The notes beneath the pieces were generated by a model. That model was not told where the DNA came from and did not search any database. It saw only the letters and a program-made list of their open reading frames with translations. From positions 186,001-250,000 of the forward strand of contig JAQFWX010000020.1 of NCBI GenBank assembly GCA_027605045.1: 64,000 nt of DNA, given 5' to 3'. Shown piece after piece: positions 14,164 through 63,203 of the stretch; the first letter of the stretch is position 1; each line of letters starts with the position of its first letter. The translations under genes were made by a program, and so were the position numbers. The stretch is from Phallus indusiatus. Taxonomy: Eukaryota > Basidiomycota > Agaricomycetes > Phallales > Phallaceae.

Positions 14164-14168
14164 CCGTT

Positions 14169-37112: not shown

Positions 37113-38198
37113 ATGTCTGGTTTTCTTAACGGACCATTGTCTGTTGTTTTTAACAAACCATTAGCTACAGTCACTCCATCCCGGATCCCGACACAGGTAC
37201 CGACAACGTCCACCATCATTGACACTCCATCTCTGACACCGGTACCGACAACGTCCACAGTCATTGACACTTCATCCCCGATTCCACTGACGTCGCTCTC
37301 CGTCGTGTCATTGAAACCCACAGCCACGACCGTGACGCCCGGTGATAAGACTACAATGAAAAATACTGGTATCGCGACGCCGGTTGATAGTGTGAAGACG
37401 GTAACTGCCAGTGTTGACCCGCACAACTTCAATGATCGTTCAAATCCGGGAACGATAATCGGCATCGTCATCGGTATCATGGTGGCTATGCTCGTTCTTA
37501 TTGGGGGAATTCTTTTCCTTTTCAAACGACGACGGTGTGCGCGGGGACGACGGGGTCTATTAAATGTGCAATCGTCCAGTAACCTTGACGTGTCGTCGTG
37601 TTTGGAGGGAACCATCCAAAGTTTTGTATTATCAACGTCGGAGATTACGAATAATGTTGCTATCACCGGAAGGACACCGAAATCAAATTTAATTTCTGAT
37701 ATTACTGCCAGTAGTAATCCAAGCTCAAACCCGAATCAGTTGTTGCACGATAGTAATACTAGTGACGAAACTCCACTTACTGACAGGCTGGTAGTGATCC
37801 AGGGAGTACCACAGCTATTAACAACAGGATATTCGAGCTCGGAATTGGAATCCGTTGCCACTGGCAGAGGAGCGACCGTTCCGGATTCAGATGCAGCTGC
37901 CCAAACACCGGTATTAGTGTTTGCTGTACCAACAAGTCCGCTGAATCCGAATTCAAGGAACTACAATGCAACAGTGAGTCCCAAAAATTAAACCTTAAAA
38001 AAAAGAAAGAAAAAACGCTAATTTTGATCATCATTATTATTATAGCTGCCTCACCGTGATTCGGAGAGATGTCATACGGACAGTGGCATTCGAGTGGGTA
38101 CAGGAACTATATTATCATACGAATATGACGATGGTTCGAATTCAGAGTGGTCGGTTCGGTCGAAAGATAGATTTCCACCTGTGTATACCTCAAATTAA
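37113..38198 (+). CDS. TMP membrane protein with PPxY tail (337 aa)
   Basis: Exons 37113-37973 and 38046-38198, phase-0 intron. Ectodomain residues 1-112 are Thr/Ser/Pro/Val-rich, with a repeated PTTSTxIDTxS unit at about 29-56 and SLSVVSLKPT near 61-70. Helix about 113-137 (GTIIGIVIGIMVAMLVLIGG) then KRRRCARGRRG. The cytosolic part is Asn/Ser-rich with LLNVQSS, TGRGATVPDSDAAAQT and SPLNPNSRNYNAT; the last exon has CHTDSGIRVGTGTILSYEYD and ends SKDRFPPVYTSN. No signal peptide is evident, so it is probably a signal-anchor protein with N-terminus outside, which is an inference. Ectodomain type matches the gene at 54270, tail type that at 62139. Intact. Confidence 0.8.
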
Positions 38199-39137
38199 AA
38201 AAGCAACAAATCAAATCGCGGTATTCCCGTAACCCACTAAAATATGTGTACCAGTGTCTCAGTTGAACGGTCTGTTTCATTTCTTTTGTGCTTGGCAGGC
38301 AATTTTTTAAGTTCGGCCCACTGAACGCGTTTCTTAACCGGAGACAACGGGACATTTCGTGATTTCCGTATATAATGCAATTGACAAGTCCTGGACATTT
38401 ATGGGGTATAAGATGAACCTGACTAAAAAAAACCTGAGCTGCACTTGCGAATTCGCACAAAGTCAAAAAATTAAAAGCCTAACCTGAATTTGATTTCACT
38501 GGTATAATCTAAATAAACGACCAGAAACGTGAATATACCGCTTATTTTCACCAAGTAGATGCTCTTCTCATTCCCATATGCTCGCCCCTACTCGCCCCCC
38601 TTCCGAATCTTCCGACCCTACCAAAAAAAGTCTCTTCATGAAGTTAGAAGTCGAGCAAAAGGTCACATGAATTGCCATATACTTACTTGGGTTTTGGACA
38701 TTTCGACGACCCTGAATTTTGTAGAAAGGTTCTAATAGTCTCAGGACCAATAACGTTCGACGCCTTCGTGGCGTTATTGACCACAGCAAGACCCATTGTA
38801 AATTTGCATTGTCCAAGTCCTAGCGCCGGCTGAGGATCTCTGACCTCCCAGCTCGTAAGCGCGCAAGGACCTACAAATTCAATTGCAACCTGAAGAATGC
38901 ATTCTGATTCGCTCCCGCGTCGTCTTGTCCTAGCACTTAAAATAGCCTAAATTGAGGACTCAAGGGGACATGAGGGAGAAGGACACGAGGGGAGAAAAAC
39001 ATAAATGAACTGAAAACGTCGTTTTCAGTTCATTTATGTCGACGTTGGGTGTGTTCGGATTTTACACGAAAACTCTTGTGTTTGACCACCACCACCATCA
39101 CCACAATTCACAGACTCAAAAAAGAAAAACACTACGT
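38199..39137 (+). promoter_or_regulatory. Flank of the TMP gene and upstream region of RING-C
   Basis: Non-coding. 38850-38990 has the RING-unit signature (CAGCTCGTAAGCGCGCAAGG, ACTCAAGGGGACATGAGG). A 41-base near-perfect palindrome lies at 38999-39039. Just before the ATG are a CCACCACCACCATCACC run and the AAAACACTACGTATGG start context shared with 59190 and 63837. Confidence 0.6.
38999..39039. repeat. Perfect 41-base palindrome in a promoter
   Basis: Two 20-base arms (ACATAAATGAACTGAAAACG and its complement) around a single T. In the paralogous position near 63720 only one arm is present, so the palindrome arose here by a short inverted duplication. It could extrude as a cruciform or hairpin. 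Confidence 0.9.
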
Positions 39138-40307
39138 ATGGCGTTTTCCTCGCTCAAACGTAAATTTCTCGCTGCGTTCCAATTGTCTCCGAGGTCTTCT
39201 CAGCGTGCGGGCTCAAGTACGAGTACGAGCAATTCGGAGTCAAAATTGGACGGGGAAGAAGAAGGCAGCAGTCCCTCTAAAAAGATCAAACATCTTTGAA
39301 AACGAAGAGTCCAGTTCCGCCGTGCATCAATACCAAGACCAAGATCAAGATCAAGTGTCCGAAGAAAATGTGGACGATGACGCGGACGAGCCGATGGATG
39401 AAGATACTGAAGAAGAAGAAGTTCACCGTGAGCTTACGAAGGAGAGTAAAGAGAGAGCGAGTTGGAGGCTGAGCTGAGAGAGATGCGGGACACGTATGCG
39501 CGCTTATACCAGGTTTGTCTTTTCTCTCTCCACCTTGTCGTCGTGCCACCTTTTTACGTTGGACTGTGGGATGCGAAGTTGGAGTCTGAGGCATTTGAAC
39601 GTGTGAAAGAGAATGTTCAATGCGTTATTTGTCAAGAAGTGATGCGCAATCCACAAGTGTACGTCCGAAGTCGTAGCATCGGTTTTCTCAAGCTGATCAG
39701 TGTTTTTCTAGGTTGACGGAATGCGAACATTCGTGCTGTTACAAGTGTTTACGAGGATGGTGGACTCAACCACGGAGAAATCATCTGTTGGCGGTGGATG
39801 AGCGGTCTATTTCGACGGATGCTGAATCTGATAGTGATGATGATGACGATGACGATGACGATACACCGGCCCCAACAGCACCCGAAACACCAGCACCAAC
39901 ACTAGCATCAGTAGTATGTAGGTCCATCCACGACACAGCCCGCACACACCCGACACCACTTCCGTCCCGTCATCCACTACTTCAAACGCTGCCCCGAATG
40001 TCAAGCCATCATCATCCGCCGCCCAGTCCCAGACTTCCGACTACGCCACATTATCGACGCAGCCCGTCTTACCCCTCTTTCCACCGAATCGCAAGAAGCC
40101 GGAGATAAGAAATGGAGCAGCAAACGCGGTGACATGTGGCGTGGTATTTTTCCAGCTGCTGGATATGAAGATGACGTTGATGAGTGGTTTGATGAGCCTG
40201 GTGTTGATGTGGATGTTGACGTTGATGTGAATGTTGGAGGAGGAGGGGATGTGGTGTTTAATTTGATGGATGGTGAAGACGAGGTTGATCCTATTTTGGA
40301 GCATTGA
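39138..40307 (+). pseudogene. RING-finger protein (RING-C), nearly complete, frameshifted
   Basis: ATG at 39138: MAFSSLKRKFLAAFQLSPRS, then a Ser/Glu-rich part with a basic SPSKKIK (possible nuclear signal). It continues as an acidic stretch (DDDADEPMDEDTEEEEV) and a coiled part ending MRDTYARLYQ. Introns 39513-39578 and 39659-39711. The zinc residues are CVICQEVMRNPQ, ECEHSCCYKCLRGWW, then an Asp run (D x9) linker and CPECQAIIIRRPVPDFRLRH, with a final acidic part ending EVDPILEH. Lesions: extra T near 39295, a shift near 39445 and one near 39915. All zinc ligands are present. If the shifts were sequencing errors it would be a working E3-like protein; as read it is a pseudogene. Confidence 0.7.
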
Positions 40308-40919
40308 GCTGTAGCGCAGGCACGAGCGAGAGAAGAAGCAAGAGCGAGGAGGGAAGCTGAGCCTTCAAGCTTTCAAGCTTCAAGCTTCAAGCTTCGAGCT
40401 TCAGAGCTTCAGCATCCTTCAACATCGCCGGCTTCCCTCAGTTTCCATCGGCCTCCATCAGACGGACCTCGCCGGATCAGGCGCAGGTGATTTTTGACAC
40501 GATATGTCGAGTGCTTCTGACAGTTGTCACCCAACAACCGCTACTGCCCAACGCGGCACTTCCACGCCGACGTGCAAACACTAATTCATGAGCATGCTTT
40601 CACTGTGTACAATTGGTTTGTTCCATCATCATAAACATTTCTCATCTGGCCCAATGACTGGAATAGAACCATCTTTGCCCTTATTTCTGAGACGAAACCT
40701 CACAAATGCAATTTAATTTTGATGCGAATTGAGATTGTGTCGAACTCAAGTTACATAGTAAGGTTTGAATCTAGCGTCAACCAACGTTTCCTGAGTCAAG
40801 TCTTTTTCTTCTTTCTCCCATCGCTCCATCTGTTATCTCTCTCTGAGATACTAGTCATTCACTTCTTTTCAGACTCCTACGTTGTCTGTCTATCTATCCC
40901 TCACTCTTTCGCTCTTAAA
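40308..40919 (+). promoter_or_regulatory. RING-C 3' flank and TMP upstream region
   Basis: Starts with decayed coding-like sequence continuing RING-C (Ala/Arg-rich) and a run of CAAGCTT units at 40366-40405. Then follow blocks of the TMP upstream region: CATTTCTCATCTGGCCCAAT, GCAATTTAATTTTGATGCGA and CAGACTCCTACGTTGTCTG, before the ATG at 40920. Confidence 0.5.
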
Positions 40920-41366
40920 ATGTCTACAAGTTCTGGGCCTAGTGATATCGGGCAACCCGACTCCTCCATTAGCAACCCCTCCCCTACGTCGCCCAACCCA
41001 TCCCCTACGTCACCCAACCCCCCCGATTCCTCAAAGGCCAACCCCACCAGTCCCATAAATTCTCCAACGTCAGGTTCTGCTCCGACAAGTATCACCATAT
41101 CGCATAACTCTATATCTATTGTCCTGGCTACTACCACAGTTAGGACGACTAGTACAGTAACCGTTGACTCGCACAACGATGATCGTCAAAATCTCGAGGT
41201 GATAATCAGCATTGTTATCGGCATCGTTGTTTTTATTCTCATCCTTCTTGGTGGTGCTCTTTTCTTTCTCAAACGATGTCGACGGTGGCAGAGACAACGT
41301 CGGGGTGCCGGGTTATCAAGGGTACGATTATTCGACCACAGTGACGCCATCCTCTTCCCAAGTTAG
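40920..41366 (+). pseudogene. TMP gene with its tail replaced
   Basis: MSTSSGPSDIGQPDSS, then PTSPNPSPTSPNP repeats, SHNSISIVLATTTVRTTSTV, helix LEVIISIVIGIVVFILILLGG and KRCRRWQRQRRG. After LFDHSD the sequence leaves the family: no EGIIQ tail, intron or PPxY exon follows, and the frame stops at 41366. The close relative at 15136-15990 keeps the normal tail. Probably non-functional, though a membrane-anchored short form of 148 residues is possible. Confidence 0.65.
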
Positions 41367-42929
41367 ATCAAGTCTAAGCTCATCAATCAAACGAACCTTC
41401 ATCGACAAGGACTATGAACACGTGAGTACTTGTACGGCGCGGATCCTTCAAGAGGCATTTCCAGCTTTTTCATGATGTCTGTTTACGCAAACCCAGACCT
41501 AGATTTGGTTCGGAATGACTACCGCTTCCTTAGCCGAGAGCTTTTCCCTCTCAATCAAACGCTCCTCTATCCCAGCGTGGACGCCAATGTGACGTTTGAG
41601 GTCGCGCTCTCCTCAAAGAACCTTTTTTACATGGATACGACTGATTATGCGGGCGAATTTCCCACTTGCAAGTATCTGAAGGAAAATAACAGATCGTTGC
41701 CTATCGGATAGATGAGGAAAAATGTTTAGCCATATACAGAAGCATCACTCGCAGTTTTGAGGCGATGAATAATAATGGGAATTGGGAAAGAATCTAAAAG
41801 AGAGAAGGATTTCAGTAATATTTAAGTGAAACAGCTATGACCTTATACTTGTATGAAAGATGTTATTTCATGGAATTGAAATGTGTGCTCGTATAACGAT
41901 ATTGTGGATGTTCATTGTTTTCGCAACGAAAGGAAAGCCTTGCGTCGGAGTTTCAAGTGAGCGCCCGTAACCAACCTTTTCCGCACTGCATGAGTCAATG
42001 GGGTGATGGGCTAATCTCAAACTGAGCCTTCCTATGTAGTCGCAAAGTATTTTTCTAATATCCGGACCGCTTGCTTAATGTGGTGAAATGAGGTAAACCG
42101 GTTCTGGTACCTATTAAGCGGTGCTCACCATCAATCTCGGTCCTACTTTGCTGAATACCGATTTTCTCAATGCCGGCCTACTTGCATAGTCGACTCCATC
42201 TGAACGCGTTACTATGTTCTTGCCTCAATCAATGCTAGTACCTTCCAAACTCCAATCGTGCACGCCGCACCAGAAGTCAGAAGGACCCTATCGCATAAAA
42301 ATGAACAAGCGAAGGCGGTTACAGTCATGATAATGGTTCATGACTAGGACTGCTTAGCCTTGGCCATCATAATGACTCTGAACCTGTTCACAGTCCGTCT
42401 GATGAGCTGATGAGGTACAGGAAACTCAAACAAGCTGTACGCAACACCAATCAAAAGCGAGCTATCATTGGCCCCTATGATCGCCGACGCTAATTTGCTA
42501 ATTCGGCTCAATATGAATGCTGAACATCCATTTTTGGATCATAGTCTAACATCAATAACCGTCTCATTCACAGGTCTTGAGTCACAGCACAACGTTGAAT
42601 TGCGGATTGACCGGTCGACGTCTCGAACACCTCGGCAACCGTACCATTTATCATCTATTCATCTGTAACCCCACCCAATGAGGGAACGTACTTGCTGCTT
42701 ATCCTTGGGAGTCGAGACAGAACCTCAAAAACGCAGTGGTCCATGATACGAATTGAGATATCTATCGCGTTGAAAACAAGGAATTGAAAGCTATTCATCT
42801 TACACTTCTCTTCATTTTGTTTTTCTCTCTCGAGCTGAGATTTACATTGGCAATGTTTAAAAGAGACCAAGTACGTGCTTGTAAAGTTCAAACTGCCTGA
42901 CAGTGTAAAGTGCATCTTGAATCCAAGTC
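41367..42929 (+). other. Unrecognised fragment and intergenic sequence
   Basis: 41471-41711 is open for about 79 codons (MMSVYANPDLDLVRNDYRFL, then FEVALSSKNLFYMDTTDYAG). It has weak similarity to decayed sequence at 44180-44430 and, inverted, 14169-14330, suggesting a former coding exon now only in fragments; no family recognised. 41930-42010 matches the block at 44600-44670. 42011-42929 shows no gene; near the end is the TMP leader. Confidence 0.35.
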
Positions 42930-43955
42930 ATGTCTGGGAAGATATTTAGTAGCGTCCTACCGGCATCACCACGTATTGTTGAACACACCACGACGCCATT
43001 GCCATCCAGTATTAGCTTCTCTACAACTACCATCCCGACGCTCAATGTAGGTTCAAGCCCAACGACGTTCAATATCTTTTCGAACTCCACAATTGAACCT
43101 ACATCATCATTCACTATCACAGGACCTGAAGGACTGTCAACAATGTCGGTCCCCTCGATCACGACCTTTTTCATTTCACCGCCATCAACTACCACTTCGC
43201 CCGGGCCCCCGGCCGCACTCCAGGCTATTACCACCACTACCACCACAATTAGGACGATTAACACCATCACTGTTGACCCCACCGTAGGAGATAGTCATCA
43301 CTTGCAGACTCGCGTGAATAACCATTAGTATCGTGGTGTCTACTCTCGTTCTTCTTGGGGGTCTTCTTTTCCTTTTCAGACGGCGTCGACGGCAGCCTGA
43401 GAGACGACGCGGTTCAGTCAGTAACCATGACGAGAATTCCTCGGAGGGGATCATCCAAACTAGCACTGCATTATCGACGACAGCAGTTACTGATCCTATC
43501 ACTGATACGACGACAAATTCAAATTCAAATTCCAATCCTGACACAACTTCTGGTACCATGACAAGTCCGAGGAGGTTGTTGCCCGATACGCCGAGTCCAA
43601 TCCAAGTCCCAAGGCTATTCACCGTAGGAGATTCGGAATCCGTACGCGATGGAGCAGCCGCCCACTCGGAAATGCCAATGACATTGTTGACTGTACGTTC
43701 AAACCAATGGAATCCGAGTCCGAATTCCAACGAAACAGTGGGTTCCCAATACCGATTAAGTCGACAAATTACATAACAATGAACACTTTTATTTTGTAGT
43801 TGCTTCACGAGAGATGGCACACGGATAGCGGCGTTCGCATAGGTGTGGAAACTCTATTAGTGTACGAATATGAGGATGACAACTTGAATGAGGCAAATTC
43901 AGAGGGGTCGGTCCGGTCAAAGGACGGACTTCCACCTGTGTATACCCGAAAGTAA
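42930..43955 (+). pseudogene. TMP gene, frameshifted in the helix
   Basis: ATG at 42930 (MSGKIFSSVLPASPRIVEHT), Thr/Ser/Pro ectodomain of about 110 residues. The helix (ITISIVVSTLVLLGGLLFLF) is in another frame than the ectodomain; the shift lies at about 43305-43325. The tail is open (EGIIQTSTALSTTAVTDP), intron 43738-43799, last exon 43800-43955 with WHTDSGVRIGVETLLVYEYE and end LPPVYTRK. One short indel separates it from a working gene, so an assembly or sequencing error should be considered. Confidence 0.7.
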
Positions 43956-45226
43956 CATTGTACATACCATGGTTCCATATCCACTTTCTGAAGATTATAT
44001 TTCAAAGAAGAAAAGCTACGGCGGCGACATAATTTGATTACTTACATGATAGCTGTAAACAACTAGAACTGCCCCCGCCTGCTCCTTTCATTCACGGTTC
44101 CCATTAATCCTCAAACTCAACCGGTCCTGCTTTACCTCTCATGTCCGTTATCATCATCGTCAACCTCGTTATCACCGACACCACATTTACAGTTCTCGGA
44201 AGATGCGGTCTAGAAATGTCTCTTCAAAGATCCACGGTGTACCCGGGTTGCTTTCGTGCAAAAAGGTTCTTCGAAAAGAGAGCGAATTTAGGCGCAATAC
44301 CGGCGTTTACAGAAGAACGTTTAATTGAGGTAGTGAAGCTATCGGGGTGGCCATTTTGAACCAGGTTTTCATCAGACATGCACGTAAAATTCTCACTAGG
44401 GCCCGGATATTTGAAGGAAAATGACAGGCGTCGACCGTTTAGACATGTTTCTCATCGAATAGATGAAGAAAATTTTAGCAAGTACCACCGTGAAGAGCAA
44501 TGAAAGAGAATCCAGAAAGAGAAGTTTTGAAAGGATATCAAACTACTGGCACAACTGTTACGGTAAAAAAACTACCGCAAAGGAAAGGAAAGGATCCATG
44601 CGGGTCATGTCGGAGTTTCAAGTGAGCGCCCGTCTTTTTTGCTTCAAGTTTTCTGCACTGTATGGCATGGCGGGATAATCTAATTATGCCTTGGCTGCAA
44701 GGCGATCAGCTTCTCTATTGTTATTTAGACACTTTGCCTATCTGAGTGGAGTGAGCTTACGCCGATCTGGGCTATCTATCTAGAGGAGCTCATCATCAAT
44801 ACCGGATACGCTTCGTCGAACTCTGCGCCAGCCTCGTATTTGCACATTAGGCCCGGAAGATTTAACGTACGTACGTAGTAGTATCTGTTCATGAACCGAT
44901 GCTCATGAGATCTAGATTATTTAACGTTTATGGTTCCTCCCACCGACTATCATTTCATTCCGATCAGTACCGAAGTATTTCATACGCAAAACCTTTAGTG
45001 TTTAATGGTTGACTTGTTTGAGTCTGAATGTCCTTTGTTTTGCGGGCGAATTGAAAGTTCGTATTAGGATTGGCGTCCAACTCAGGTACCATGTATGACT
45101 CACATCCACAGTCGTCGTGCTCACAATATACCGTGCCAGCGAACAAGTCGATTTTTTCCTTCATTTCTATGATAAGCGTCACAAGAACGTGCAATTATAG
45201 TCGTGTTGGCTTGACCAGCGCTACAG
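43956..45226. repeat. Decayed intergenic blocks, inverted copies in 13-22 kb
   Basis: 44150-44460 corresponds, inverted, to 14169-14400. 44400-44870 corresponds to 13101-13690, and 44640-44990 to 21290-21660. 44950-45226 also resembles 24110-24410. No ORF with support. Confidence 0.55.
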
Positions 45227-46142: not shown

Positions 46143-47347
46143 ATGACCACCTTAATAGTTCTCCCCAATGGGGTTACAAATAATCCGATCCCCTCGTCGA
46201 CGTCCGTAGGGAATCCTTTCTTGACCGTGACAACCTTTACCGAGACGATATCGATCAACCCAGGTGGTCCTGAGATACCAGCGCCATCCATACCAGACAC
46301 TACTCTTGTGCCGGTCACCATTGGTACTACACCCCCCGCGGACCCCACCCCTTCTTCACCGACAACGCCTCTTCCAACTTCAACACCATCAAGCACAAAT
46401 CCCGGCTCGGACATCTCCTCAGATAGTCCCACCACGTCGAATAGTAATTCTGGGTCAAATAGTTCTGGGTCAAATAGTTCTGGGTCAAATAGTTCTGGGT
46501 CAAATCATTCTGCGTCAAACAGTTCTGCGCCGACTAATCTTCCGTCGAGTAGTTCTGAATCGATAACGCCCGTTGCCACCACAATTAGGACGACTAGCAC
46601 CGTGACCGTTGATAAAACCGCAGACTTGCACAGTGGTAATCGTCAGAATCTCGGGATGATAATCGGCATCGTCATTAGCGTCGTAGTGGTTATTCTCGTT
46701 CTTCTTGGAGGTACCCTTTTCTTTTGGAAACGACGGCAAAAACGACGCGGTTTACTATCGTCCCCTGCTTCGGAGGGGATTGTTCAAAGTACTGTATTAT
46801 CGAAGACAGAAATTAGTGGTGCTGCTGATATTAATGCCACAATGCCGATTTCACATCCAAGTCCAAACCCTGTCGACCTCAGTGATTCCTCAAGCCCAAA
46901 TCCAAATCGGTTGCTATTGCACAATACTCCACTTTCAATGACAGTCCGAGTACCACAGCTACTGACAATAGGAGATTCGGAACTCGAACCCGTTGTTGCT
47001 AGAACAACCAGTCCGGATCCCGGCAGTGCAGCCACTACTTCTCAAGTGCAGCCGGTGTCATTGTTAACTACCCCATTCCCACATCAATGGAGTACGAGTC
47101 AGAATCCGAATCCGAATCCGAATCCGAACTACAATGCTCCTGTGAGTCCTAAAACTATAAGTTTTTTGAAAAAAACCACAACTAATTGTAATTATAGCCC
47201 CCTCGCGAAACTGAAAGATGGCATACAGATAGTGGCATTCGCGTGGGTGAAGGGGCTCTATTACTGTACGAACGTGACGGTGAAGCGAATTCGGAGTGGT
47301 CAGTACGGTCGAAAGACAGATTTCCACCTGTGTATACCCGAAATTAA
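46143..47347 (+). CDS. TMP membrane protein with PPxY tail (382 aa)
   Basis: Exons 46143-47141 and 47198-47347. Ectodomain residues 1-170 are Thr/Ser/Pro-rich with tandem SGSNS units at about 103-127 and APTNLPSSSSES. Helix about 171-195 (GMIIGIVISVVVVILVLLGG), then KRRQKRRG. The cytosolic stretch has EGIVQSTVLSK, LLLHNTPLSM and NPNPNPNPNYNAP. The last exon reads RWHTDSGIRVGEGALLLYER and ends SKDRFPPVYTRN. Closest relative is the minus-strand gene at 11248-12553 over its full length, consistent with an old inverted duplication. A 15-base coding minisatellite lies in the ectodomain. Intact as read; no signal peptide visible. Confidence 0.8.
46440..46525 (+). repeat. 15-base coding minisatellite
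   Basis: Four consecutive units of TCTGGGTCAAATAGT, with degenerate units after them, encode SGSNS repeats in the TMP ectodomain. All in frame. Confidence 0.88.
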
Positions 47348-48807: not shown

Positions 48808-49876
48808 ATGTCTTTCATTCTTGCTCTTGGTGTTGGTGATGGTAATGGTGATGGTGTTGGTGATGGTGTTGGCGATGATAATGGTGTTACCATTAGTATT
48901 AATATTGGTGATGGTGTTAGCGGTGTTAGTGTTGGTAATGGTGTTGCACCTCACTCACCGACGGCGCCCTCAACGACGCTCGTTGATACCACTACAATTA
49001 TAATCACTAGTAGTATAACGGTAATTGCCAGTGTTGACCCGACTCACAATTTTAACTATGATCGTCCAAATCTGGGAACAATAATCGGCATTGTCATAGG
49101 CATCGCGGTGGTTATTCTCATTCTCATTGGAGGAACACTTTTCTTTTTTCTAAAACGACGGGGTTTATTACATGTCGTACAATCATCTGGTAACCGTGCC
49201 AGTAACGAGGCCGCCGACGCCGAGTCCTCGTCTTTGTCTTTGGAGGGAGTCATCCAAAGTGCTGTATTATCAACGTCGGAAATTACGAATAATGAAATTA
49301 CGAATAATGTTACTATCACAGGAACGACACCGGAATTAAATTTAATTTCCGACACAACTCCCAGTAGTAATCCAAGCTCAAACCCGAATGGGTTGTTGCA
49401 CGATAGTACTAGTGACGATACTCCACTCGCTGACAGGCTGACACCGGTCCCGAGAGTACCGCAGCTATTGACAACAGGAGGTTCGGATTCGCAATTCAGA
49501 TCCGTTGCTACTGGCAGATCTAGAGAAGCGATCGTTCCGGATTCAAGTGCAGCTGTGCAAACGCCGGTGTCAGTGTTAACATTGACTGCACCAGCACCAA
49601 ATCAACGGAGTCCGCCAAATCCGAATTCAAGCTTGAACTACAATATAACAATGGTGAGTCACCTCAAAAACGATTATTTAAATCGTCCAAAAAAAATAAC
49701 GCTAATTTTGATTACTGTCATCATAGCTACCTCATCACAGTGACGAGAGATGGCATACGGACAGTGGTGTTCGCGTGGATGGAGGAACACTAGCGTACGA
49801 ATATGATGATGGTTCAAGTTCCCAGTTGTCTATTCGGTCGAAAGATAGATTTCCACCTGTGTATACCCCAAATTAA
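48808..49876 (+). CDS. TMP membrane protein with Gly/Val-rich ectodomain (331 aa)
   Basis: Exons 48808-49653 and 49727-49876. The first 46 residues are a Gly/Val/Asp/Asn repeat (MSFILALGVGDGNGDGVGDG), then PTAPSTTLVDTTT and SVDPTHNFNYDRP. Helix about 91-115 (TIIGIVIGIAVVILILIGG), then FFLKRRG. The tail has EGVIQSAVLSTSEIT, VATGRSREAIVPDSS and SPPNPNSSLNYNIT; the last exon has ERWHTDSGVRVDGGTLAYEY and ends SKDRFPPVYTPN. Ectodomain type is shared with 62139, tail type with 54270 and 57145. Intact; the ectodomain is not Ser/Thr-rich at its start, unlike most paralogues. Confidence 0.8.
48825..48950 (+). repeat. GGTGNTGGT-type coding minisatellite
   Basis: Degenerate 6- to 12-base units coding Gly-Val/Asp/Asn at the N-terminus of the TMP protein. 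The opposite strand is also open here because of composition, not because of a gene. Confidence 0.8.
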
Positions 49877-52407: not shown

Positions 52408-53497
52408 TGCCTCCAGGCACTATTACTTCTATAGATCCCGCGCCAGTGACTAGTCAAAATCAACTTACCATGTCAATTCAATCGACAATATCGTTACTAT
52501 TCCATCCCCGAACAATCTGAGGGTCATTTTTAGCACAGCCACTACCATTTTTTTTACAACCGCTGACCTCACCATTTCCGACCTCACCGCACCTCAGCAC
52601 CTCTCTAAATAATATCTTGTTGAATAGTTTTCCTGAGTCGACACCCACGGCCGTGACGCCCGTTGGTACCGCTACAATCAAAGCCAGTAGTGTAATGACA
52701 GTGACTGCCAGTGTTGACCCGACGCACAATTTCAACGATGATCGTCCAAATATGGGGACGATAATCAGCGTCGTCATTGGTATCGTGGTGGTTATTCTCG
52801 CTCTTATTGGGGCAATTCTTTTCTTCCTTAAACGACGACGGCATGTGCGGAGATGACGGGGTTCACTGAATGTGCAAGGTAACCGTGGCGAGTCCTCGTC
52901 TTTGTCTGCGGAGGGAATCATTCAAAGCACTGTATTACTAACGTTGGAACTTAGTAATAATAATATTACTATCACTGAAATGACACCGAATTCAAATTCA
53001 ACTGCCAGTGCCAGTTATACCTCAGATTCGAATCCGAACAGGATGTTGTTACACAATACTACCTTGACTACTCCACTCAGGCCGGCATTCCCGGGGGTAT
53101 TGACAACAGGAAATTCGGATTTAGGATTCGACCGATGCCACTGAAAGATGTGAAGAAGGAATTGTTCCTAATCCTGGTGCCAGTGCAGCTGCCGTGCAAA
53201 TGCCGGCATCAGTGTCAACTGCACCAGCACCGAATCAATGGAGTCTTCCAAATTTGAGCTGAATTATGATGCAACGGTGTGTCCCCAAGCCAAAAAAACA
53301 AATACTGGTTTTGATCAATGGTTACTGGTATTATAGCTGCCTCACTCTGACTTAGAGAGAAAAAATGCCATATGGACAGTGGTGTTCGGCTGGGTACTAG
53401 GGAAACACCACTATCATATGAATATGACGATGGGGCAAATTCAGAATGGTAGATACGGTCCAAAGATAGGTTTCCATCTGTGTATACTCCTGATTAA
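52408..53497 (+). pseudogene. TMP pseudogene
   Basis: ATG at 52408 (MPPGTITSIDPAPVTSQNQ), TGA after LLFHPRTI. Further on are FPESTPTAVTPVGT, SVDPTHNFNDDRPNMG, helix GTIISVVIGIVVVILALIGA, KRRRHVRR, then TGA. The tail is open in the next frame (AEGIIQSTVLLTLELSNNN, LLHNTTLTTPLRPAFPG), then stops. The last exon (about 53334-53497) reads NSEW-stop and ends FPSVYTPD, with the PPxY already changed to PSVY. At least three stops and a shift. Confidence 0.75.
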
Positions 53498-54269: not shown

Positions 54270-55436
54270 ATGTCTGCGCTTGTTCTTAGCGCTGCAACCA
54301 GCCCATTTCCTCCTAGAGTCACTCCATTCCTGATTCCGACACCGTTACCGATGCCCTTCACAGTCATTGACACTCTATCCCTGATCCCGACACTAGTACC
54401 GACGCCGTTCACAGTCATTAACGCTTTATCCCCGATCCTGATACCGCCGGGACCGATGTCGTCCACAGTCATTGACACTCCATCCCCGATCCCACTGACG
54501 ACGCTCTCCGTCGTGTCATTGAAACCCACACCCGCGACCGTGACGCCCGGTGATAAGACTACAGTTGAAACCACTGGTATCGTCACGCCGGTTGATAGTG
54601 TGAAGACGGTGACTGCCAGTGTTGACCCGCACAACTTCAATGATCGTCCAAATCTGGGAACAATAATTGGCATCGTCATTGGCATCGTAGTGGTTTTTCT
54701 CGTTCTCACTGGGGGAATTCTTTTCTTTTTTCTAAAACGACGGGGTTTACTGAATGCGCAATCATCTGGCAACCGTGCTGGTGGCGAGGCCGCCGAGTCC
54801 TCGTCTTCGTTTTTGGAGGGAAATGGCAACCAAAGTTCTGTATTGTCGATGTCTGAAATTACTGATAGCATTACTATCACCGGAACGACACAGAGTTCAA
54901 ATTCAATTTCTGACACAACTGCCAGCAGTACCCCAAGCTCAAGCCCGTATCGGTTGTTGCACGATAGCACTAGTGACGATACCCTGGCACGGGTCCCAAG
55001 AGTACCACAGCTATTAACAGCAGGATCGGATTTGGGTTCGGAAATCGAATCTTTTACCACAGGCAGATCTAGAGAAGAGGTCGTTCCGGATTCAAGTGAA
55101 GCTGTGCAAACGCTGATGCCAGTGTCAACCGCACCAACACCAAATCAACCGAGTCTGCCAAATGCGAATTTAAGCCTGAACTACAATGTAACGGTAAGTC
55201 ACCAAAAAAAACAATTATTTAAACCGTACCCCCCTCCTCCAAAAAAAAACGCTGATTTTGATTATTATTGTCATGCATTATAGCTGCCTCATCACAGTGA
55301 CGAGAGATGGCATACGGACAGTGGCATTCGCGTGGGTGGAGGAACTCTACTAGCGTACGAATATGGCGATGATTCAAATTGCGAGTCGTCGATTCGGTCG
55401 AAAGATAGATTTCCACCTATGTATAGCCAAAGTTAA
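54270..55436 (+). CDS. TMP membrane protein with PPxY-like tail (358 aa)
   Basis: Exons 54270-55193 and 55284-55436. Ectodomain residues 1-130 contain a unit of about 25 residues repeated three times, around TPFTVIDTLSLIP, TPFTVINALSPIL and MSSTVIDTPSPIP, then TLSVVSLKPTPATVTPGDKT as in the gene at 37113. Helix about 131-155 (TIIGIVIGIVVVFLVLTGG), FFLKRRG. The tail has FTTGRSREEVVPDSS and NLSLNYNVT. The last exon is RWHTDSGIRVGGGTLLAYEY, ending SKDRFPPMYSQS: PPMY still fits PPxY, but the final T-x-N is S-Q-S. Intact. Confidence 0.8.
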
Positions 55437-56149
55437 AAAGCACGATAGAGAATAAGCCGAACATTTTGCGTACCACCATGTGTGCGAGAACAGTAAGAGG
55501 TACCAGCCACTCAACGCGTTTTCGAAGCCGTCCACGGGACATTGTCATAGTTTCGTCATTGGCAATTAAAAGAAGTCCGTCCGAGCCTAAACCTGAGTTA
55601 CGGATCACAAAAGCCTAAAACGTCTAACACTCAGCTCCAATCCAACACTCTCAAGGACTTCATTGAGTCTGGTTTGGATTGGATTTCATACATTGAGCCC
55701 TGGACACAGTTTGAAGCCTGATTAGGTCTGAAAATAAATGACTCATTAACTCACCATTTAGATTAATCTCCATCTCTATCTTTCTCGTCACTGTTCCGAT
55801 ATACTACTGCTACGCCACACGCATTCAAGTCCAATACCTGATCCGCTTATGGCCTCGAATTCCAAGCTCAAGATTCAGGTCATCGATATCGATACACGTT
55901 AATTAAACCTATGGACTGGCAGTCATGGTGGCGGCTCGTCATCTAGTCAAGGAAAAAATGAGAATTGCGCCGTACTTACATGGCTTCTGGACATTTCGAC
56001 GACCCTGAAATATTGTCCCAGACTTCCTAAAGTTTCAGACCAATTAACGTCAACGCGTGAACGCTATTGTTATCCACGGATTTTTTTTTTTGTTTCGTCC
56101 ATGGCAAGGCCCGTGGTAAATTTTATTGTAGTAGCGCCCGCTGAAACCT
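55437..56149. other. Intergenic flank
   Basis: No gene. Array sequence found after other TMP genes (compare 60895-61320); includes CTTCTGGACATTTCGACG. Confidence 0.45.
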
Positions 56150-56640
56150 CCGCGATCTTCCACTCAGCACGTAAGCGCACAAGGACAGAGCATTCTTCTT
56201 TCTGATTCGTTGATCCTTTCTCGCTTAAAATACCCTCCGAGTGAGGACTCCAGGGGACATGAGGAAGAGGGGACACAAGGGAAGAAAAAACATACATGAG
56301 CTGAAAACGTTGGGCGTGTTCGGACTTTACGAAACGACAAGAGAGTCTTGTCTTTTAACCGTCACCACAGATACATATCTTGATTGTTACTGGTTCTGGC
56401 TGCCACTGGCAGTGTTAATAAAATTCACTATTACAAGGGTATCTTATTTTTTCAGTGCGGTCTACCTCGACGCGGATACTGAGTCTGAGAGCCGATGATG
56501 TGATGAGGGTGACGATTCACCGGCACCACTGCCAAGGTCCAGACTCAGCACCAGCAGGAATGCCAGCAACGGGTCCATCTACCACGCACGCACGATATTG
56601 ACACCATTTTCGTCATTCAGTTATCCACTACTTCAAATGG
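56150..56640 (+). pseudogene. RING unit remnant without zinc finger
   Basis: Signature CAGCACGTAAGCGCACAAGG at 56166, GGGGACATGAGGAAGAGG, then directly a piece of the DTES region (GCGGATACTGAGTCTGAG) and linker. Same internal deletion as at 35961-36500, so these two units are copies of one deleted ancestor. 56641-57144 holds the next TMP upstream blocks. Confidence 0.62.
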
Positions 56641-57144
56641 AATCGCATATAAAAATACACGCTCTTTTTTCCCGTAACAACATAATACGTGTACATCAAT
56701 AATCATATTGTGAATATTGTGTAGCCCAAGTTCGAAAGTTTTGTCACCAGAAGTCAAGTTCGGTTTTTGAACTTTTTTTAACACTCGATTGTCCATTTGT
56801 CGCATCTTTAAGAGGTATATTTATGAGCATTCCTTTTTTTCAATCGGTTTCCACGATCGACCATCAAAATTTATTATAATATTATCATACTAATTGTAAC
56901 AACCACTTATGGGCTCATTTTTGAGACAAAACCTCACGACTCGGAATGCACTTGAACGTTTGAACCCTGATACGAATTGAGTTCGTGGCGAACTTACGTT
57001 ACATATCAACCCCTCAAAGGCCCCCTCTCTCACACACTCCTTTCATAGTCATTCACCGTGACTCCGTTTCCCCCCCTCAGACTCCTACGCTGTCTGAGTC
57101 TGTCTGTCTATCTCTGTCTATCTCCCGCTTCTTTCGCCCTTGAA

Positions 57145-58212
57145 ATGACTTCCACTGCTGTTCTTTCTTTGACTTCTACCGTCCCTCTTCAACTCGTTCC
57201 AGTCACGATCCCACTGACGACGTTCACATTCATTGACACTCCATTCACGACCGAACTGACGACGCTCTTCGTCGTGACATCGCAAGAGTCTGAGCTCACA
57301 CCCGCGATCGTGACGCCCGTTGATACCACTACAATTATCACTAGTACCGTGACGACTCCCGTTGATAATGTGATGACGGTGACTGCCAGTGTTGGCCCGC
57401 ACAACTTCGATGATCGTCCGAATCTGGGAACGATAATCGGCGTCGTCATTGGTATCATGGTGGCCATGCTCGTTCTTATTGGGGGAATTCTTTTCTTTTT
57501 CAAACGTCGACGACAAAGACGACGGGTTTTATTAAATGTCCAATCATCCGGTACTAACCGTGGCGAGTCGTCGTCGTCTAATGAGGGAATCATCCAAAGT
57601 GCTGTATTTTCAACGTCAGAAATTATGAATAATATTTCTATCACCAGAACGACACCAAAATCGAATTTAGGTTCTGACACAACTGCCAGTAGTCCTCCAA
57701 GCTCAAACTCGAATCGGTTGTTGCATGATAGTAATACTAATGATGTCGATGATCCCCCCCTCCGACTCACTGACAGGTTGGCACCGGTCCCCAGAGTACC
57801 ACAGCTATTGACAACAGGAAGTTCGAATTCAGAATTCGGAAGTGTTGCTACTGGCCAATCTAGAGAAGCGATCGTTTCGGATTCAAGTGCAGCTGTGCAA
57901 ACGCCGGAGTCAGTATTAACAATAACTGCACCAGCACCAAATCAATCGAGTCCTCCAAATCCGAATCTGAATCCGAACCTGAACTGCAATGCAACGGTGA
58001 GTCACCAAAAACAATTATTTAAGCCGTTCAATTTAATTTTTTGATCATTATTGTTAAAGCTGCCTCACCGTGATTCAGAGCGATGCCATATGGACAGTGG
58101 TATTCGAATGGGTATGGGAACTCCATTATCATACGAATATGACAATGGTGCAGATTCAGAGTTGTCGGTTCGGTCGAAAGACAGGTTTCCACCTGTGTAT
58201 ACCCAAGATTAA
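57145..58212 (+). CDS. TMP membrane protein with PPxY tail (334 aa)
   Basis: Exons 57145-57996 and 58060-58212. MTSTAVLSLTSTVPLQLVPV, Thr-rich ectodomain to about residue 95, helix about 96-119 (GTIIGVVIGIMVAMLVLIGG), KRRRQRRR. The tail has VLLNVQSSG, NEGIIQSAVFSTSEI, LRLTDRLAPVPRVPQLLTTG and GQSREAIVSDSS; last exon CHMDSGIRMGMGTPLSYEYD, ending SKDRFPPVYTQD. An in-frame ATG at 57058 would add 29 residues that look like a signal peptide (LRLLRCLSLSVYLCLSPASF). That stretch is the conserved 5' leader of the family, which is not in frame in paralogues, so the later ATG is preferred. Intact. Confidence 0.8.
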
Positions 58213-58899
58213 AACGCAACAAAATATTTGCGTATCACTAAGTATAAGTGGGGCATACAGATAGCCTAGTATGGCAGTTACAGTAAGGTCACCCACTCAA
58301 ATGTGTTTCAAACCGTCGACGGGGAGTTTTCGTAATTTTATATTAATAATCCTTAATATTTGAATTTAATCTGACTAGGACTTTCTGACTCCTGAGTTGC
58401 AAATCCATAAGGCCAGATTAGTCCGTCGCCCTGGCAATGCTCAACAATACTGACACTGCCAGGCAGAGCCCGGGTAAATAGCAGGAGAGTGGCTCAAAGA
58501 CTTATTATCACCAATTAAATGCGCATTTCAGATTCTCTCCTTAACTCTTTCTCGCGTTCCGATACAGTGCTGCTACCACACCGCCCCCGTTTCAGTCCAA
58601 GTCCACTGGATCCGAGTGCGAGCCCGAGTTCTTGTGGCCTCCAGCCTAAGCATGCTCAGATTATTACAACTGCGTCCACAGGAATGACCCTATCACATAA
58701 ACTTATGGGCTTAAATTCGCGGCTCGTCATTCAGTTAAGGAAAAAATATGAGAATTGCGCCATACTTAGCTTTTGGACATTTCGACGACTCTCAAACATT
58801 GACCCAAACTTCCTTAAAGTCTCAGACCAATGAGCTTCAACGCTCATTGTTATCCAGGGATTTTTTTAGGCCCATAAAACATTTTATTGACCTAGCCCC
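58213..58899. other. Intergenic flank
   Basis: No gene. Closely follows 50350-50880 (shared GCGGCTCGTCATTCAGT, CTCAAACATTGACCCAAACT), a unit-level duplication. Confidence 0.5.
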
Positions 58900-59339
58900 T
58901 GAGCCTCTCCCAGTTCCCAACAGGTAAGCGCGCAAGGACCTACACATCAACCGGAGCATTTCTTCCTTCTGATTCGCTGATCTTGTCTCGCTTCAAATAG
59001 TCTCAAACTGAGAACTCAAGGAGACATGAGGGAGAGTGACACAAAGGGAGAAAAATTGAGCTAAAACGTTGGGTAGGATGTGTTCGAACTTTACGAAAAC
59101 TCTTGTTATTTAACCACCATTACCACCACTACATTTCACAATTTTCATAAAATCTATCCGGATATCATCTCAAAACAGAAAAACACTACGTATGATGTTT
59201 CCTCGCTCAAACGTAAATTTTTCTCTGCGCTTCAGTTGTATCAGAAGTCTTCTTAGCGTTCTAGCTCAAGTTCGGGTACATGGAACGACTCGGGTTCAAA
59301 AGCAGAAGGAGAAGAAGCATCGCAAGTGCCTCATCATAA
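58900..59339 (+). pseudogene. RING remnant, N-terminal part only
   Basis: Signature CCCAACAGGTAAGCGCGCAAG, ACTCAAGGAGACATGAGG, AAAACACTACGTATGATG, then a shifted version of the MAFSSLKRKF start (CGCTCAAACGTAAATTTTTC) with an in-frame TAG, and the E/K-rich stretch. Ends at about 59339 where unrelated sequence begins. No zinc finger. Confidence 0.62.
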
Positions 59340-59690
59340 ATCAATTAATATATTGAACCCAGCGCACGTTAGTACATATGTACTGTACAACAACTCTTAT
59401 GTACTTATAGAGGCAAATTATATAAATGGCTAAGCCATTTTCGGACGTAATTGGAAAAACACACTGATAGTGATCGATGATTGAGAATGTAGAGAGAACT
59501 GGTGCACAGGAGCAAGGGCACTGACTTTCTGAAATTGAACAGGTGCCTGTGGAGCTGTGACGACAACAGCGAACCATGTGGTACTCACCTTTGATGAATG
59601 CGTAGCCCCACGTATTCAATAGAGACCTCGTCTCAACGGCTTGATTGTGGAGCGTGATGGGCCTACATACCTGTTCGTATTAATTGTGTT
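59340..59690 (-). other. Foreign minus-strand fragment, possibly spliced coding
   Basis: Unlike any other part of the array. On the minus strand it reads RPITLHNQAVETRSLLNTWG then YAFIK, a GT...AG segment of 42 bases (about 59590-59549), then APVQFQKVSALAPVHQFSLH and SQSS, with a further shift and stop. It looks like a piece of an ordinary spliced gene captured between units; the family is not recognised. It may also be chance. Confidence 0.3.
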
Positions 59691-59945
59691 GGTTGTGTAC
59701 TTCAGCTCCATTTATAAAACATGTTGACAGATCCTCACGAATGCAATTGAAATTTGATAGGAATTGAGCCTTGATACGAATTGAGTTTTGATACGAATTG
59801 AGTTCCCGGCGAACTTACGTTACATATTAACCAAAAAGCGCATACACACACTATTTCATAGTCATTCACCCCATTTCCCCCCTCAGACTCTTACGCTTTC
59901 TAAAACTGTCTATCCATCTCCATCTTTCGCTCTTTCGCCATCGAA
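59691..59945 (+). promoter_or_regulatory. Short TMP upstream region with a tandem repeat
   Basis: Contains TTGATACGAATTGAG twice in tandem (about 59773-59803) ahead of GGCGAACTTACGTTACATAT, then CAGACTCTTACGCTTTCTAA and the pyrimidine leader. The distal blocks seen elsewhere are lost because of the preceding fragment. Confidence 0.6.
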
Positions 59946-60894
59946 ATGACTTCTGGTATTTCAACCGTTCCGGGGTTCGGCATTTTCGGCCCTGCCTCTC
60001 AAGAGTCTCAATTACCACCGAATCTGCTCCCCTCACAAGGCTCCGTGACTCCTTCACCTACAATCGTGTCGAAGCCAACATCCGTAACGCTCGTTAATAC
60101 CACCATAATTAAAACCGTTAGTGTGATGACGGTGACTGCCAGTGCTGACCCTACGCACAACGTTAACGATGATCGTCAAAATCTGGGAACGATCATCGGC
60201 ATCGTCGTTGGCATTGTGGTGGTCATTCTCTTTCTTATTGGGGGAATTCTTTTCTTTTTCAAACGACGACGGCATGCGCAGAGACGACGGGGTTTATTAA
60301 ATGTGCAATCATCCAATAACCCCGACAAGTTCTCGTCTTTGTTTTTGGAGGGAATCATCCCAAGTAATGTATTATCAACGTCGGAAGTTACCAATAATAA
60401 TATTATCGCCGGCACAGCACCGAATTCAAATTCAAATTTAAATTTTGACACAACTGCCGGTGATACTTCAAACTCAAATCCGAATGGGTTGTGGTTGCAC
60501 AATACTACTAGGACTGCTCAACTCAGGCCGGCATTCCCCGGGCCGGGAGTACCACAGCTATTGACAACAGCAGATTCGAATTTGGGATCTGAATCCGGGG
60601 CCACTGGCAGATCTAGAGAAGCGACCGATCCAGATTCGAATTCAAGCTCGAACTACTATAATGCAACTGTAAGTCCCAAAATCCCTCAATTAAACCTCCA
60701 AACAAAAAGAAAACAAACGCTAATTTTGATCATTATTATAGCTGCTCCATCGTGACCCAGAGAGATACCATACAGACAGTGGCATTCGCGTGGGTGGAGG
60801 GGCTCTACTAGCATACGAATATGACGACGGTGAAAATACGGAGTGGTCGGTTCAGTCGAAAGATAGATTCCCACCTGTGTATACCCAAAATTAA
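59946..60894 (+). CDS. TMP membrane protein with PPxY tail (291 aa, shortest)
   Basis: Exons 59946-60668 and 60742-60894. Ectodomain only about 80 residues (MTSGISTVPGFGIFGPASQE, then VTPSPTIVSKPTS and ADPTHNVNDDRQ). Helix about 81-105 (GTIIGIVVGIVVVILFLIGG), KRRRHAQRRRG. The tail has EGIIPSNVLSTSEVTNNN, LHNTTRTAQLRPAFPGPG and TGRSREATDPDSNSSS; last exon YHTDSGIRVGGGALLAYEYD, ending SKDRFPPVYTQN. Intact. Its tail around LRPAFPG resembles the pseudogene at 52408. Confidence 0.8.
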
Positions 60895-61329
60895 AAAGCA
60901 TGACACAAAATAAGCTGGGTATTCGCGTAGCTAACCACTTATGTGTGCGGGGATACCGGTCACCCGCTCAACTCAACGCGTTTTCAAGCCGTCCACGGGA
61001 CATTGTCGTAATTTCGTTATTGGAAAAAAAAATCCATCCGAACCTAAACCTGAGTTACGAATTTTAAATGTCTAAAAAAAAGCCCGACAATGTTGTGGAT
61101 TTGACTATAACAGCAAAGTCTAAGTAAACAGCCGAAATAAAGCGTGAATAGATGAATCATTAACTTACCCATTAGATGCTCTTCAATCTCTATCTCGTTC
61201 CGGTATGTTGCTGGCTACGCTACACCCGTTCAAGTCCAATTCCAGATCCACTTGTGGCTTCAAATTCCAAGCTCAAAATTCAGGTCATCGATCGATACAC
61301 CCTTACGAAGGATTAACACATAAATATTT
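60895..61329. other. Intergenic flank
   Basis: No gene. Same array flank as 55437-55930 (CAACGCGTTTTCAAGCCGTC, CGGGACATTGTCGTAATTTC). Confidence 0.45.
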
Positions 61330-61560
61330 AAATAAACCTGTTGACGGGAGCCGACGATGGTGGCGATTTGCCACCAAGGTCCAGTTTCAGGCTTCAGCGC
61401 TTCAGCTGCCAGCAGCGGGTCCATCTACCACGCACGTACGACACCATTTTCGTCGTCAAGTTATCCACTGCCTCAAATGATGGAATCGCACATAAAAATA
61501 CATGCTCTTTTTTTCCCGTAAAAAACATAACATGTGTACAATAATAATTATAGTGTGATA
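61330..61560 (+). pseudogene. RING remnant (linker only)
   Basis: Starts within the linker equivalent (CCGACGATGGTGGCGA), then AGCAGCGGGTCCATCTACCA and CGTCGTCAAGTTATCCACTG, the place where intact copies encode HFRPVIHYFK before CPEC. No zinc residues. 61561-62138 holds the next TMP upstream blocks (TATATTTATCAGCATATCTT, GTTCGTGGCGAACTTATG). Confidence 0.55.
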
Positions 61561-62138
61561 TTGCATAGCCCAAGTTCAAAAGTTTAAGTTTTGTCACCAT
61601 CAGAAGTCAATTTTTGGATAACTCCCGATCATGGATTTGCCGCATCTGGCTGATTCTGATTCTGGCAGTTGCACCCACGCTCGTTACTATTATTACTAGT
61701 TTACTGGCTAACACGTTACACGGCACGCCCACGCCGGTTTTTTTCATTTCATGTTCGAGTCTTAAACATCATGATCACAATGGTGGGAAGATGCCGGCAT
61801 CTGTAAGAGGTATATTTATCAGCATATCTTTTCTTCAATTGGTTTCCATCATCAACTATCAACATTTATTGTGATATCATGTTATCTTTAACATAACACG
61901 AGATCCATTTATGGGTTCATTTTTGATACAGAACCTCAGGAATGCACTGTAGCCTTGATACGAATTGAGTTCGTGGCGAACTTATGCTACATATTAACCC
62001 CCGAAGAGCCTACACACACACTCTTTCTCTCTTTTTCTCTTTCAAAGTCATTCACTTCATTTCCCCCCCTCAGACTTTTACGCTGGTCGAGTCTGTCTAT
62101 CCACCTCCTTTCACTTCTTTTGCTCTTTCGCCATTGAA

Positions 62139-63203
62139 ATGTCTTTCTTTCCTGCTCTTGGTGCTGGTGCTGGTGCTGGTGCTGGTGTTGATGATGGTGT
62201 TATTGTTGGTAATGGTGTTAGTATTAGTAATGGTGTTATTGTTGGTAATGGTGTTAGTATTAGTAATGGTGTTATTGTTGGTAATGGTGTTAGTATTGGT
62301 AATGGTGTTATTGTTGGTAGTGGTTTTAGTGTTGGTAATGGTGTTGCACCCTACTTACCGACGGCGCCTTCAACGACGCTCGTTGATACCGCTACATTTA
62401 AAATCACTGGTAGTGTGACAGTAATTGCCAGTGTCGACCCGACGCACAATTTTAACGTTAACGATGATCGTCCAAATCTGGGAACGATAATCGGCATCGT
62501 CATCGGTATCGTGGTGGCTATGCTCGTTCTTATTGGCGGAATCCTTTTCCTTTTTAAACGTCGACGGCAGAGACGACGGGGTCTATTAAACGTGCAATCA
62601 TCCGATAACCGTGGCGAGTCTTCGTCTTTGGAGGGAATCATCCAAAGTGCTGTATTTTCAACGTCGGAAATTAGGAATAATGTTACTATCGCCAGAAGGA
62701 CACCGAAATCAAATTTAATTTCTGACACAAGCTCAAATCCGAATCAGTTGTTGCACGATAGTACTAGTGACAATACTCCACTCACTCACAGGCTGGCACT
62801 GGTCCCGGGAGTACCACGGTTATTAACAACAGGAGATTCGAGTTCCGAATTCGAATCCGTTGCTGACACTGGCAGAGGAGCGACCGTTGCGGATTCAGAT
62901 GCAGCTGCGCAAACGCCGGTGTCAGTGTTTACTGCACCAGCAAGTCCGCTGAATCCGAATTCAAGGAACTACAATGCAACAGTGAGTCCCGAAAAACAAT
63001 TATAAAACCCGTTCAAAGAAAAACACTGATTTTGATCATTGTTTTTATAGCTGCCTCATCGTGACCTAGAGAGATGCCATACGGACAGTGGAATTCGAAT
63101 GGGTACGGGAACTTTATTAGTGTACGAATACGACGATGGGGCAAATTCAGAGTGGTCGGTTCGGTCGAAAGACAGGTTTCCACCTGTGTATACCCCAAAT
63201 TAA
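62139..63203 (+). CDS. TMP membrane protein with Gly/Val repeat ectodomain (331 aa)
   Basis: Exons 62139-62981 and 63051-63203. Residues 1-70 are tandem repeats (GAGAGAG, then the 12-residue unit VIVGNGVSISNG about four times), followed by PTAPSTTLVDTATF as in the gene at 48808. Helix about 116-139 (GTIIGIVIGIVVAMLVLIGG), KRRRQRRRG. The tail has TGRGATVADSDAAAQT and SPLNPNSRNYNAT as at 37113; last exon RCHTDSGIRMGTGTLLVYEY, ending SKDRFPPVYTPN. Intact. The repeats lack Ser/Thr density, so this ectodomain would differ physically from the mucin-like ones. Confidence 0.8.
62195..62345 (+). repeat. 36-base coding minisatellite
   Basis: Units of 36 bases built on GGTGTTATTGTTGGTAATGG and GTGTTAGTATTAGTAATG are repeated about four times in frame, encoding VIVGNGVSISNG. 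The first units are identical, so turnover is recent. Confidence 0.9.

Follow-up and report, generated by a model that had tools for sequence, protein, structure and literature searches.

A tandem cluster of PPxY-tailed membrane protein genes in Phallus indusiatus, possibly an ectodomain-eroded branch of a larger fungal family

A stretch of 64,000 nucleotides (nt) of the Phallus indusiatus genome (bases 186001-250000 of contig C112, JAQFWX010000020.1, in an assembly of 67.2 Mb and 206 contigs; hereafter the window) contains a tandem cluster of genes for predicted single-pass membrane proteins that share a last exon ending in a PPxY motif. The explanation we favour, at about even confidence, is that this birth-and-death cluster is a derived branch of a larger PPxY-tailed family in which the ectodomain has eroded, and that its proteins act as adaptors or cargo of a Rsp5-type ubiquitin ligase. 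Its observed base consists of the gene structure, the common tail, a locus common with fuller family members, a constraint on helix and tail that exceeds that on the other parts, the decay of half of the loci and a copy number that differs between two collinear contigs.

In the fuller members, a long ectodomain without repeats precedes one helix, an Arg/Lys stop-transfer cluster and a spliced-on C-terminal exon that carries the DSGxR and PPxY motifs; under this explanation, the window branch would have undergone erosion of the long ectodomain and tandem amplification of its copies. The proteins would be placed N-out/C-in by a signal-anchor, and their PPxY would recruit a Rsp5/NEDD4-type ligase, with a gene on contig C89 as the candidate. 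By analogy with yeast Rcr1/Rcr2 or fly Commissureless, the window proteins might function as adaptors of that ligase or as cargo sorted by it, the ectodomain being mainly a low-complexity spacer that would evolve under weak sequence constraint through repeat expansion.

Searches of the window with two exon-1 and three exon-2 models (tblastn) located 16 tail-exon loci, eight of them with open two-exon models whose GT..AG introns span 56-90 nt and are all in phase 0 (Table 1), in agreement with an initial annotation that counted at least 16 loci and eight clean models. Exon 1 of the intact models codes for a variable N-terminal stretch (79-187 amino acids, aa), the helix, an Arg/Lys cluster and another 123-161 aa, and exon 2 for the final 49-50 aa; the other eight loci are broken, 5'-truncated, partial or remnant. 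Of the 16 tails, 14 retain PPxY (12 PPVY and 2 PPMY); the motif is missing at 53.4 kb (PSVY, with an in-frame stop) and 20.6 kb (a remnant), and DNA matching PPVYT exactly occurs 12 times in the window versus a mean of 0.05 in 100 shuffles. The range first proposed for the cluster, 37113..63203, ends at the final base of the stop codon of the last model, g63 (position 63203), but covers only the right half of the cluster. Every intact model contains a single strong helix; 3-7 Lys/Arg residues come just after it and 0-2 before it, a charge pattern that predicts an N-out/C-in orientation and a cytosolic tail. In g50 there is an additional weak segment (1.65).

The helix and the tail are under stronger constraint than the remaining parts of these genes. 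Median ratios of nonsynonymous to synonymous substitution (dN/dS; Nei-Gojobori counts on MAFFT alignments) over the 45 pairs of ten genes, namely eight from the window, one other from C112 and one from contig C128, were 0.27 for the helix part, 0.31 for the tail and 0.62 for the cytoplasmic middle, and the ectodomain gave 0.59 from 33 usable pairs of a poorly alignable sequence, the underlying alignment being unreliable. Mean nucleotide identity, calculated for 15 pairs from six window genes, was 0.84 in the helix part, 0.81 in the tail, 0.79 in the cytoplasmic middle, 0.74 in the intron, 0.60 in the ectodomain and 0.58 in the 3' flank, a profile that supports the initial description of single-pass proteins with a common last exon. 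The tail is more constrained than the intron and the 3' flank, but not uniformly more than its surroundings: the 200-nt 5' flank is conserved too, with an identity of 0.81 where aligned, equal to that of the tail, and of 0.65 versus 0.81 for the tail with gaps counted. Over the ten genes, 15 of the 50 tail columns are invariant at the protein level, 7 of these with silent changes. Of the initial view, a common, constrained PPxY tail on a varying family is upheld, but the description 'constant inside' is not supported, since the cytoplasmic middle varies as much as the ectodomain. Diversifying selection, proposed on the same occasion, did not emerge from the separate ectodomain and tail counts, with median dN/dS below 1 in every gene part; for allelic pairs, ectodomain values were 0.86 (g55), 0.24 (g61) and undefined (g63).

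Ectodomain variation results largely from repeats and indels. The ectodomains of the eight intact genes differ in length and composition, and tandem repeats were found in g63 (18- and 72-nt units), g38 (about 45 nt), g55 (about 51 nt), g47 (15 nt) and g11 (18 nt). The cluster is a case of a 'variable outside' produced by repeat change, on top of a helix and tail under constraint, with no sign of diversifying selection. A reverse-complement origin of the g63 and g50 repeats was considered and rejected, as the score exceeded all 100 codon shuffles in one of 22 comparisons (25 versus 24), compared with 16 of 22 in the forward direction.

Fuller relatives occupy the same locus. Members at 68.9, 111.5 and 453.9 kb of C112 combine a long, non-repetitive, two-part ectodomain with a tail of the same type, the member at 122.0 kb has a different ectodomain and a same-type tail, and all four contain DSGVR or DSGIR together with PPxY in the tail exon. 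The founder genes at 68.9 and 111.5 kb have counterparts in the protein database: P0001 (582 aa, from a source contig of 2,953 bases) is 100% identical over its full length to the joined 68.9 kb query and matches the genome in three intron-separated pieces, and P0003 (606 aa, from 3,189 bases) matches the 111.5 kb gene at 97-100%, also in three pieces. Both continue uninterrupted across positions at which the genome has stop-containing introns, and for this reason we take them as transcript-derived. In both founder genes the last exon is spliced on, and a last exon left unspliced, which would have refuted the initial annotation, did not occur in these two genes; a 62% relative, P0002, located on a 19.5 kb contig, is without the last exon. 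Window genes have the tail of this long-ectodomain family, a predicted spliced-on exon that bears a DSG[IVL]R-type motif and, close to its end, PPxY, and all eight intact models have its helix and Arg/Lys cluster. For the second ectodomain part (94 aa), 77 matches were found in the genome (E<=0.001), including a large cluster on C1/C56, and none of the 77 lies inside the window, whose genes lack the long two-part ectodomain.

Additional family members were sought farther away, with five loci fetched, two of which are alleles (L054/L055), leaving four non-allelic ones. Both tail features occur in frame with the helix in L056 (DSGLR...ELPPIYTTI) and L057 (DTDIR...EMPPVYTPS), that is, in two of the four, the case for a common family resting on the founders at the locus. 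Taken together, P0001, P0003, L056 and L057 resemble the window genes in having one helix, a basic cluster, a DSG-type motif and a terminal PPxY, and some lie at the same locus with the last exon spliced; the window genes differ in being without that ectodomain, shorter and tandemly amplified. Their appearance is that of a branch in which the long ectodomain was lost while helix and tail were retained. Long-ectodomain single-pass proteins are presumably abundant among the 'hypothetical proteins' of mushrooms, and a search of open-licence literature found nothing on this family. If the tail recruits Rsp5, it would provide the first testable mechanism for a large, little-studied family of fungal membrane proteins, for which the cluster would offer natural ectodomain-deleted versions at differing dose on two apparent haplotypes.

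Several observations concern the ectodomains and tails of these relatives. L036 (C112:120478-123594) and L037 (C128:398205-401321) carry the same tail behind a different ectodomain (FEPVSNPITCTNVNISW...), which suggests that the ectodomain was replaced while the tail was retained. Another ectodomain match occurs at C112:118.6 kb, and a divergent tail (DSGIR...PPTYTRN) lies at C112:110832-110957 (+), roughly 0.6 kb away from the founder at 111.5 kb, on the opposite strand. A large cluster of ectodomain-bearing relatives is found on C1 (about 734-1043 kb), C56 and C149, also on apparent haplotype contigs.

A genome-wide search with a single tail exon as query (E<=1) returned at least 40 matches, and all 40 fall on C112 and C128, in opposite order. 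C128:342931-352939 aligns to window positions 63998-53960 at 95%, and because order, opposite orientation and identity are collinear, the two contigs appear to be two haplotypes of one locus; on the same grounds, the possibility of a second, unlinked cluster on C128 was set aside. Between common anchors, 20 tail matches occur on C112:145.6-249.1 kb (about 103 kb) versus 10 on C128:374.7-343.7 kb (about 31 kb), with five further matches per contig outside the anchors, and the helix matched the locus 18 times on C112 and 11 times on C128, four marginal matches lying on other contigs. Part of this copy-number difference could be an assembly effect. Other regions are also multi-copy (STE3 on C120/C153 and C61/C120, and a polymerase-subunit domain on C105/C120/C153), and since this applies to some regions but not all, the assembly looks only partly phased. 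The 30 tails listed for comparison were picked by likeness to a tail exon, and PPxY conservation among them is partly selected for. At the DNA level, PPVYT had 47 hits genome-wide versus 22 (16 and 6) for a reversed-pattern control, and much of this genome-wide signal is chance; eight of the hit loci outside the cluster were fetched, among which L003 (a member on C67), L007 and L008 are C-terminal tails and L001, L002, L004, L005 and L006 were not seen to have a tail context.

Alleles differ in several ways. The g58 gene, open in C112, loses its reading frame within exon 1 of the C128 copy, and the C128 allele of g63 is 12 aa shorter, its ectodomain differing by 12 gapped codons and one substitution. 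For g61, the two alleles differ by 1.9% in the cytoplasmic middle, 10.3% in the helix part and 8.7% in the tail (25 of 267 sites in the helix part and tail versus 12 of 597 in the ectodomain and cytoplasmic middle, p 4e-6). For the helix part of the C128 allele, g38 is a closer match (7.7%) than g61 itself, a pattern suggestive of ectopic conversion; in the tail, the own allele is still the nearest among those compared, and a conversion donor was not found. A g50 relative on C128 (about 357.2-357.8 kb) differs in its ectodomain repeat (GAGAGGAEAEAGPG) and adjoins sequence like window 3577-3981.

Rsp5/NEDD4 ligases are built with WW domains beside a HECT domain. Of the WW and HECT matches located in the genome, those on C89 alone show three WW domains in this position, with three WW matches (C89:114739-115308) adjoining a HECT match (C89:113297-114419) on the same strand. 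The WW reader of PPxY suggested initially has a candidate in this gene, which, judged by the motif, could bind the tails. A weak WW-domain match is also present at C112:37663-37755 and C128:497354-497446, some 30 kb away from the first member of the family. According to PMC5578492, yeast Rcr1/Rcr2, fly Commissureless and vertebrate PRRG4 are similarly short single-pass proteins whose cytoplasmic PY motifs bind Rsp5/Nedd4, and Rcr1/Rcr2 affect cell-surface permeases. The window proteins differ from them in having the PY motif at the extreme C terminus, in forming a large tandem cluster and in showing no RCR-type profile among Pfam hits at E<=1 in the three of eight intact proteins scanned, a search whose filters lose many weak matches. 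These three proteins fell below every Pfam cut-off, and no folded domain was recognised in their repeat-built ectodomains.

A number of results weigh against an eroded branch of ligase adaptors or cargo. Neither the window genes nor the apparent N termini of fuller members showed a clear signal peptide on inspection, so that surface display is no more than a possibility. Glycophorin C and other type III membrane proteins are N-out and have no signal peptide. The window proteins are like them in charge-predicted orientation and in the lack of a clear signal peptide, an analogy that extends to the insertion route only; how type III proteins are inserted is the subject of PMC8249459. The activity of Rcr1 in chitin deposition does not require Rsp5 (PMC5578492), and a PY tail need not mean a ligase-dependent function. 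Only eight of the 16 tail loci are intact, the remainder being broken or partial. Among the distant members, the DSGLR and PPSYTLA of L054/L055 fall in different frames, which means either a broken tail or an unrecognised intron, and L053 has NSGIR without PPxY. A structure model of P0001 from three sequences (mean predicted local distance difference test, pLDDT, of 35) was too poor for use; it shows strands in the ectodomain and one helix, and at this low confidence an all-beta ectodomain is no more than a suggestion. A sequence comparison of P0001 with solved structures gave a single chance-level hit (E 0.76). Finally, two founder genes were found spliced, yet no window gene had a transcript-like hit: a one-gene protein search found no relative at E<=1, and a search with ten aligned members gave, among the matches listed, two weak hits (E 0.0085 and 0.076, covering 10-14% of the query) that we judged unrelated. 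This is weak evidence of absence.

Several of these points fit a serious rival, decay of the whole cluster, which we regard as a real though clearly lesser possibility. Here tandem duplication and transposons would amplify partial copies as a by-product, with the ectodomain drifting and the tail kept constant by recent duplication and conversion. The eight broken or partial loci, the inverted duplication and Ty3-type element pieces described below, the g58 copy out of frame in C128, the conversion-like pattern of g61 and the missing transcript-like hits would all be expected, and some of the damage may be artefactual, since the in-frame stops and the g58 frameshift may be assembly errors. Decay accounts less readily for helix and tail dN/dS of about 0.3, half that of the cytoplasmic middle in these genes, for the protein-invariant tail columns with silent changes, or for eight open models with consistent splice sites.

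Recognition receptors or a surface coat under diversifying selection, possibly for mycelial self/nonself recognition, would be compatible with the twofold difference in tail matches between anchors and with the ectodomain differences among intact genes; we consider them improbable given the ectodomain dN/dS of 0.59 (in poorly alignable sequence), the repeat-built ectodomains, a cytoplasmic middle as variable as the ectodomain, and 24 STE3 matches confined to C120, C153 and C61, unlinked to the cluster, in a search that did not extend to homeodomain genes, HET or NLR partners. Cell-wall stress sensors of the Mid2/Wsc type, with a Ser/Thr-rich ectodomain, one helix and a signalling tail, are slightly less probable still: some window genes resemble Mid2-like sensors (PF04478) in a Ser/Thr-rich ectodomain (Ser+Thr fraction 0.40 in g11 and 0.42 in g47) and in the helix with its basic juxtamembrane stretch, and a founder query exceeds the Pfam Mid2 cut-off (29 versus 23.2 bits, over 46 residues around the helix), but the three scanned window proteins stay under it (17.9, 15.6 and 13.5 bits), the g63 and g50 ectodomains have Ser+Thr fractions of only 0.17 and 0.22 and no N-glycosylation sequon, and a clear signal peptide is lacking.

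One speculative extension of the favoured explanation, to which we give little credence, is that a haplotype-variable array of 'headless' PY-tailed proteins without signal peptide competes with the full relatives for a Rsp5-type ligase and would tune receptor turnover, with the nuclei of a dikaryon supplying different doses.

Table 1. Intact genes, incomplete copies and the inverted duplication in the window (positions count from the first base of the window).
Feature	Position	Strand	Details
g11, intact	11248..12553	-	exon 1 12553-11459, intron 11458-11398, exon 2 11397-11248; 414 aa
g38, intact	37113..38198	+	exon 1 37113-37973, intron 37974-38045, exon 2 38046-38198; 337 aa
g47, intact	46143..47347	+	exon 1 46143-47141, intron to 47197, exon 2 47198-47347; 382 aa
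g50, intact	48808..49876	+	exon 1 48808-49653, exon 2 49727-49876; 331 aa; Gly/Asn/Val-rich repeat ectodomain
g55, intact	54270..55436	+	exon 1 54270-55193, exon 2 55284-55436; 358 aa; PPMYS tail; allele in C128
g58, intact	57145..58212	+	exon 1 57145-57996, exon 2 58060-58212; 334 aa
g61, intact	59946..60894	+	exon 1 59946-60668, exon 2 60742-60894; 291 aa
g63, intact	62139..63203	+	exon 1 62139-62981, exon 2 63051-63203; 331 aa; GNGV-type repeat ectodomain
Broken copy	8224..8955	-	helix piece, exon-1 stop, tail exon intact; left inverted-repeat arm
Broken copy	25562..26525	+	exon-1 stop, tail exon intact; right arm of the same inverted repeat
Tail exon of inverted, 5'-truncated copy of g11	23356..23499	+	3' end of the 11.4 kb gene
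Tail exon standing alone	14535..14687	-	PPMYT
Broken copy	15139..16034	-	stop directly after helix, tail exon intact
Remnant	20526..20923	-	helix and degenerate tail, without PPxY
No clean model	40722..43952	+	exon-1 piece with helix at 41.1 kb, second helix piece at ~43.3 kb, tail exon 43800-43952 (PPVYT)
Broken copy	52638..53488	+	stop after helix and stop in tail (PSVYT)
Inverted segmental duplication	7933..26813	.	7933-11606 versus 23141-26813; five abutting pieces at 100%

The inverted duplication (about 3.7 kb per arm, with 11.5 kb between the arms) carries cluster members, and the loci at 8.2 and 26.4 kb are near-identical copies within it; at 100% identity it is either very recent or an assembly effect. 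Pieces of Ty3-type retroelements, with integrase core, reverse transcriptase, chromodomain and gag, occupy window positions 1131-5866 (-) and 6178-7071 (+), and pieces of a multicopper oxidase (laccase-like; Cu-oxidase_3 and Cu-oxidase_2) occupy 31018-33787 (+). An 84% relative of the stretch 30640-34376 lies at C128:335158-338845; its position breaks the order of the cluster, which suggests segmental duplication.

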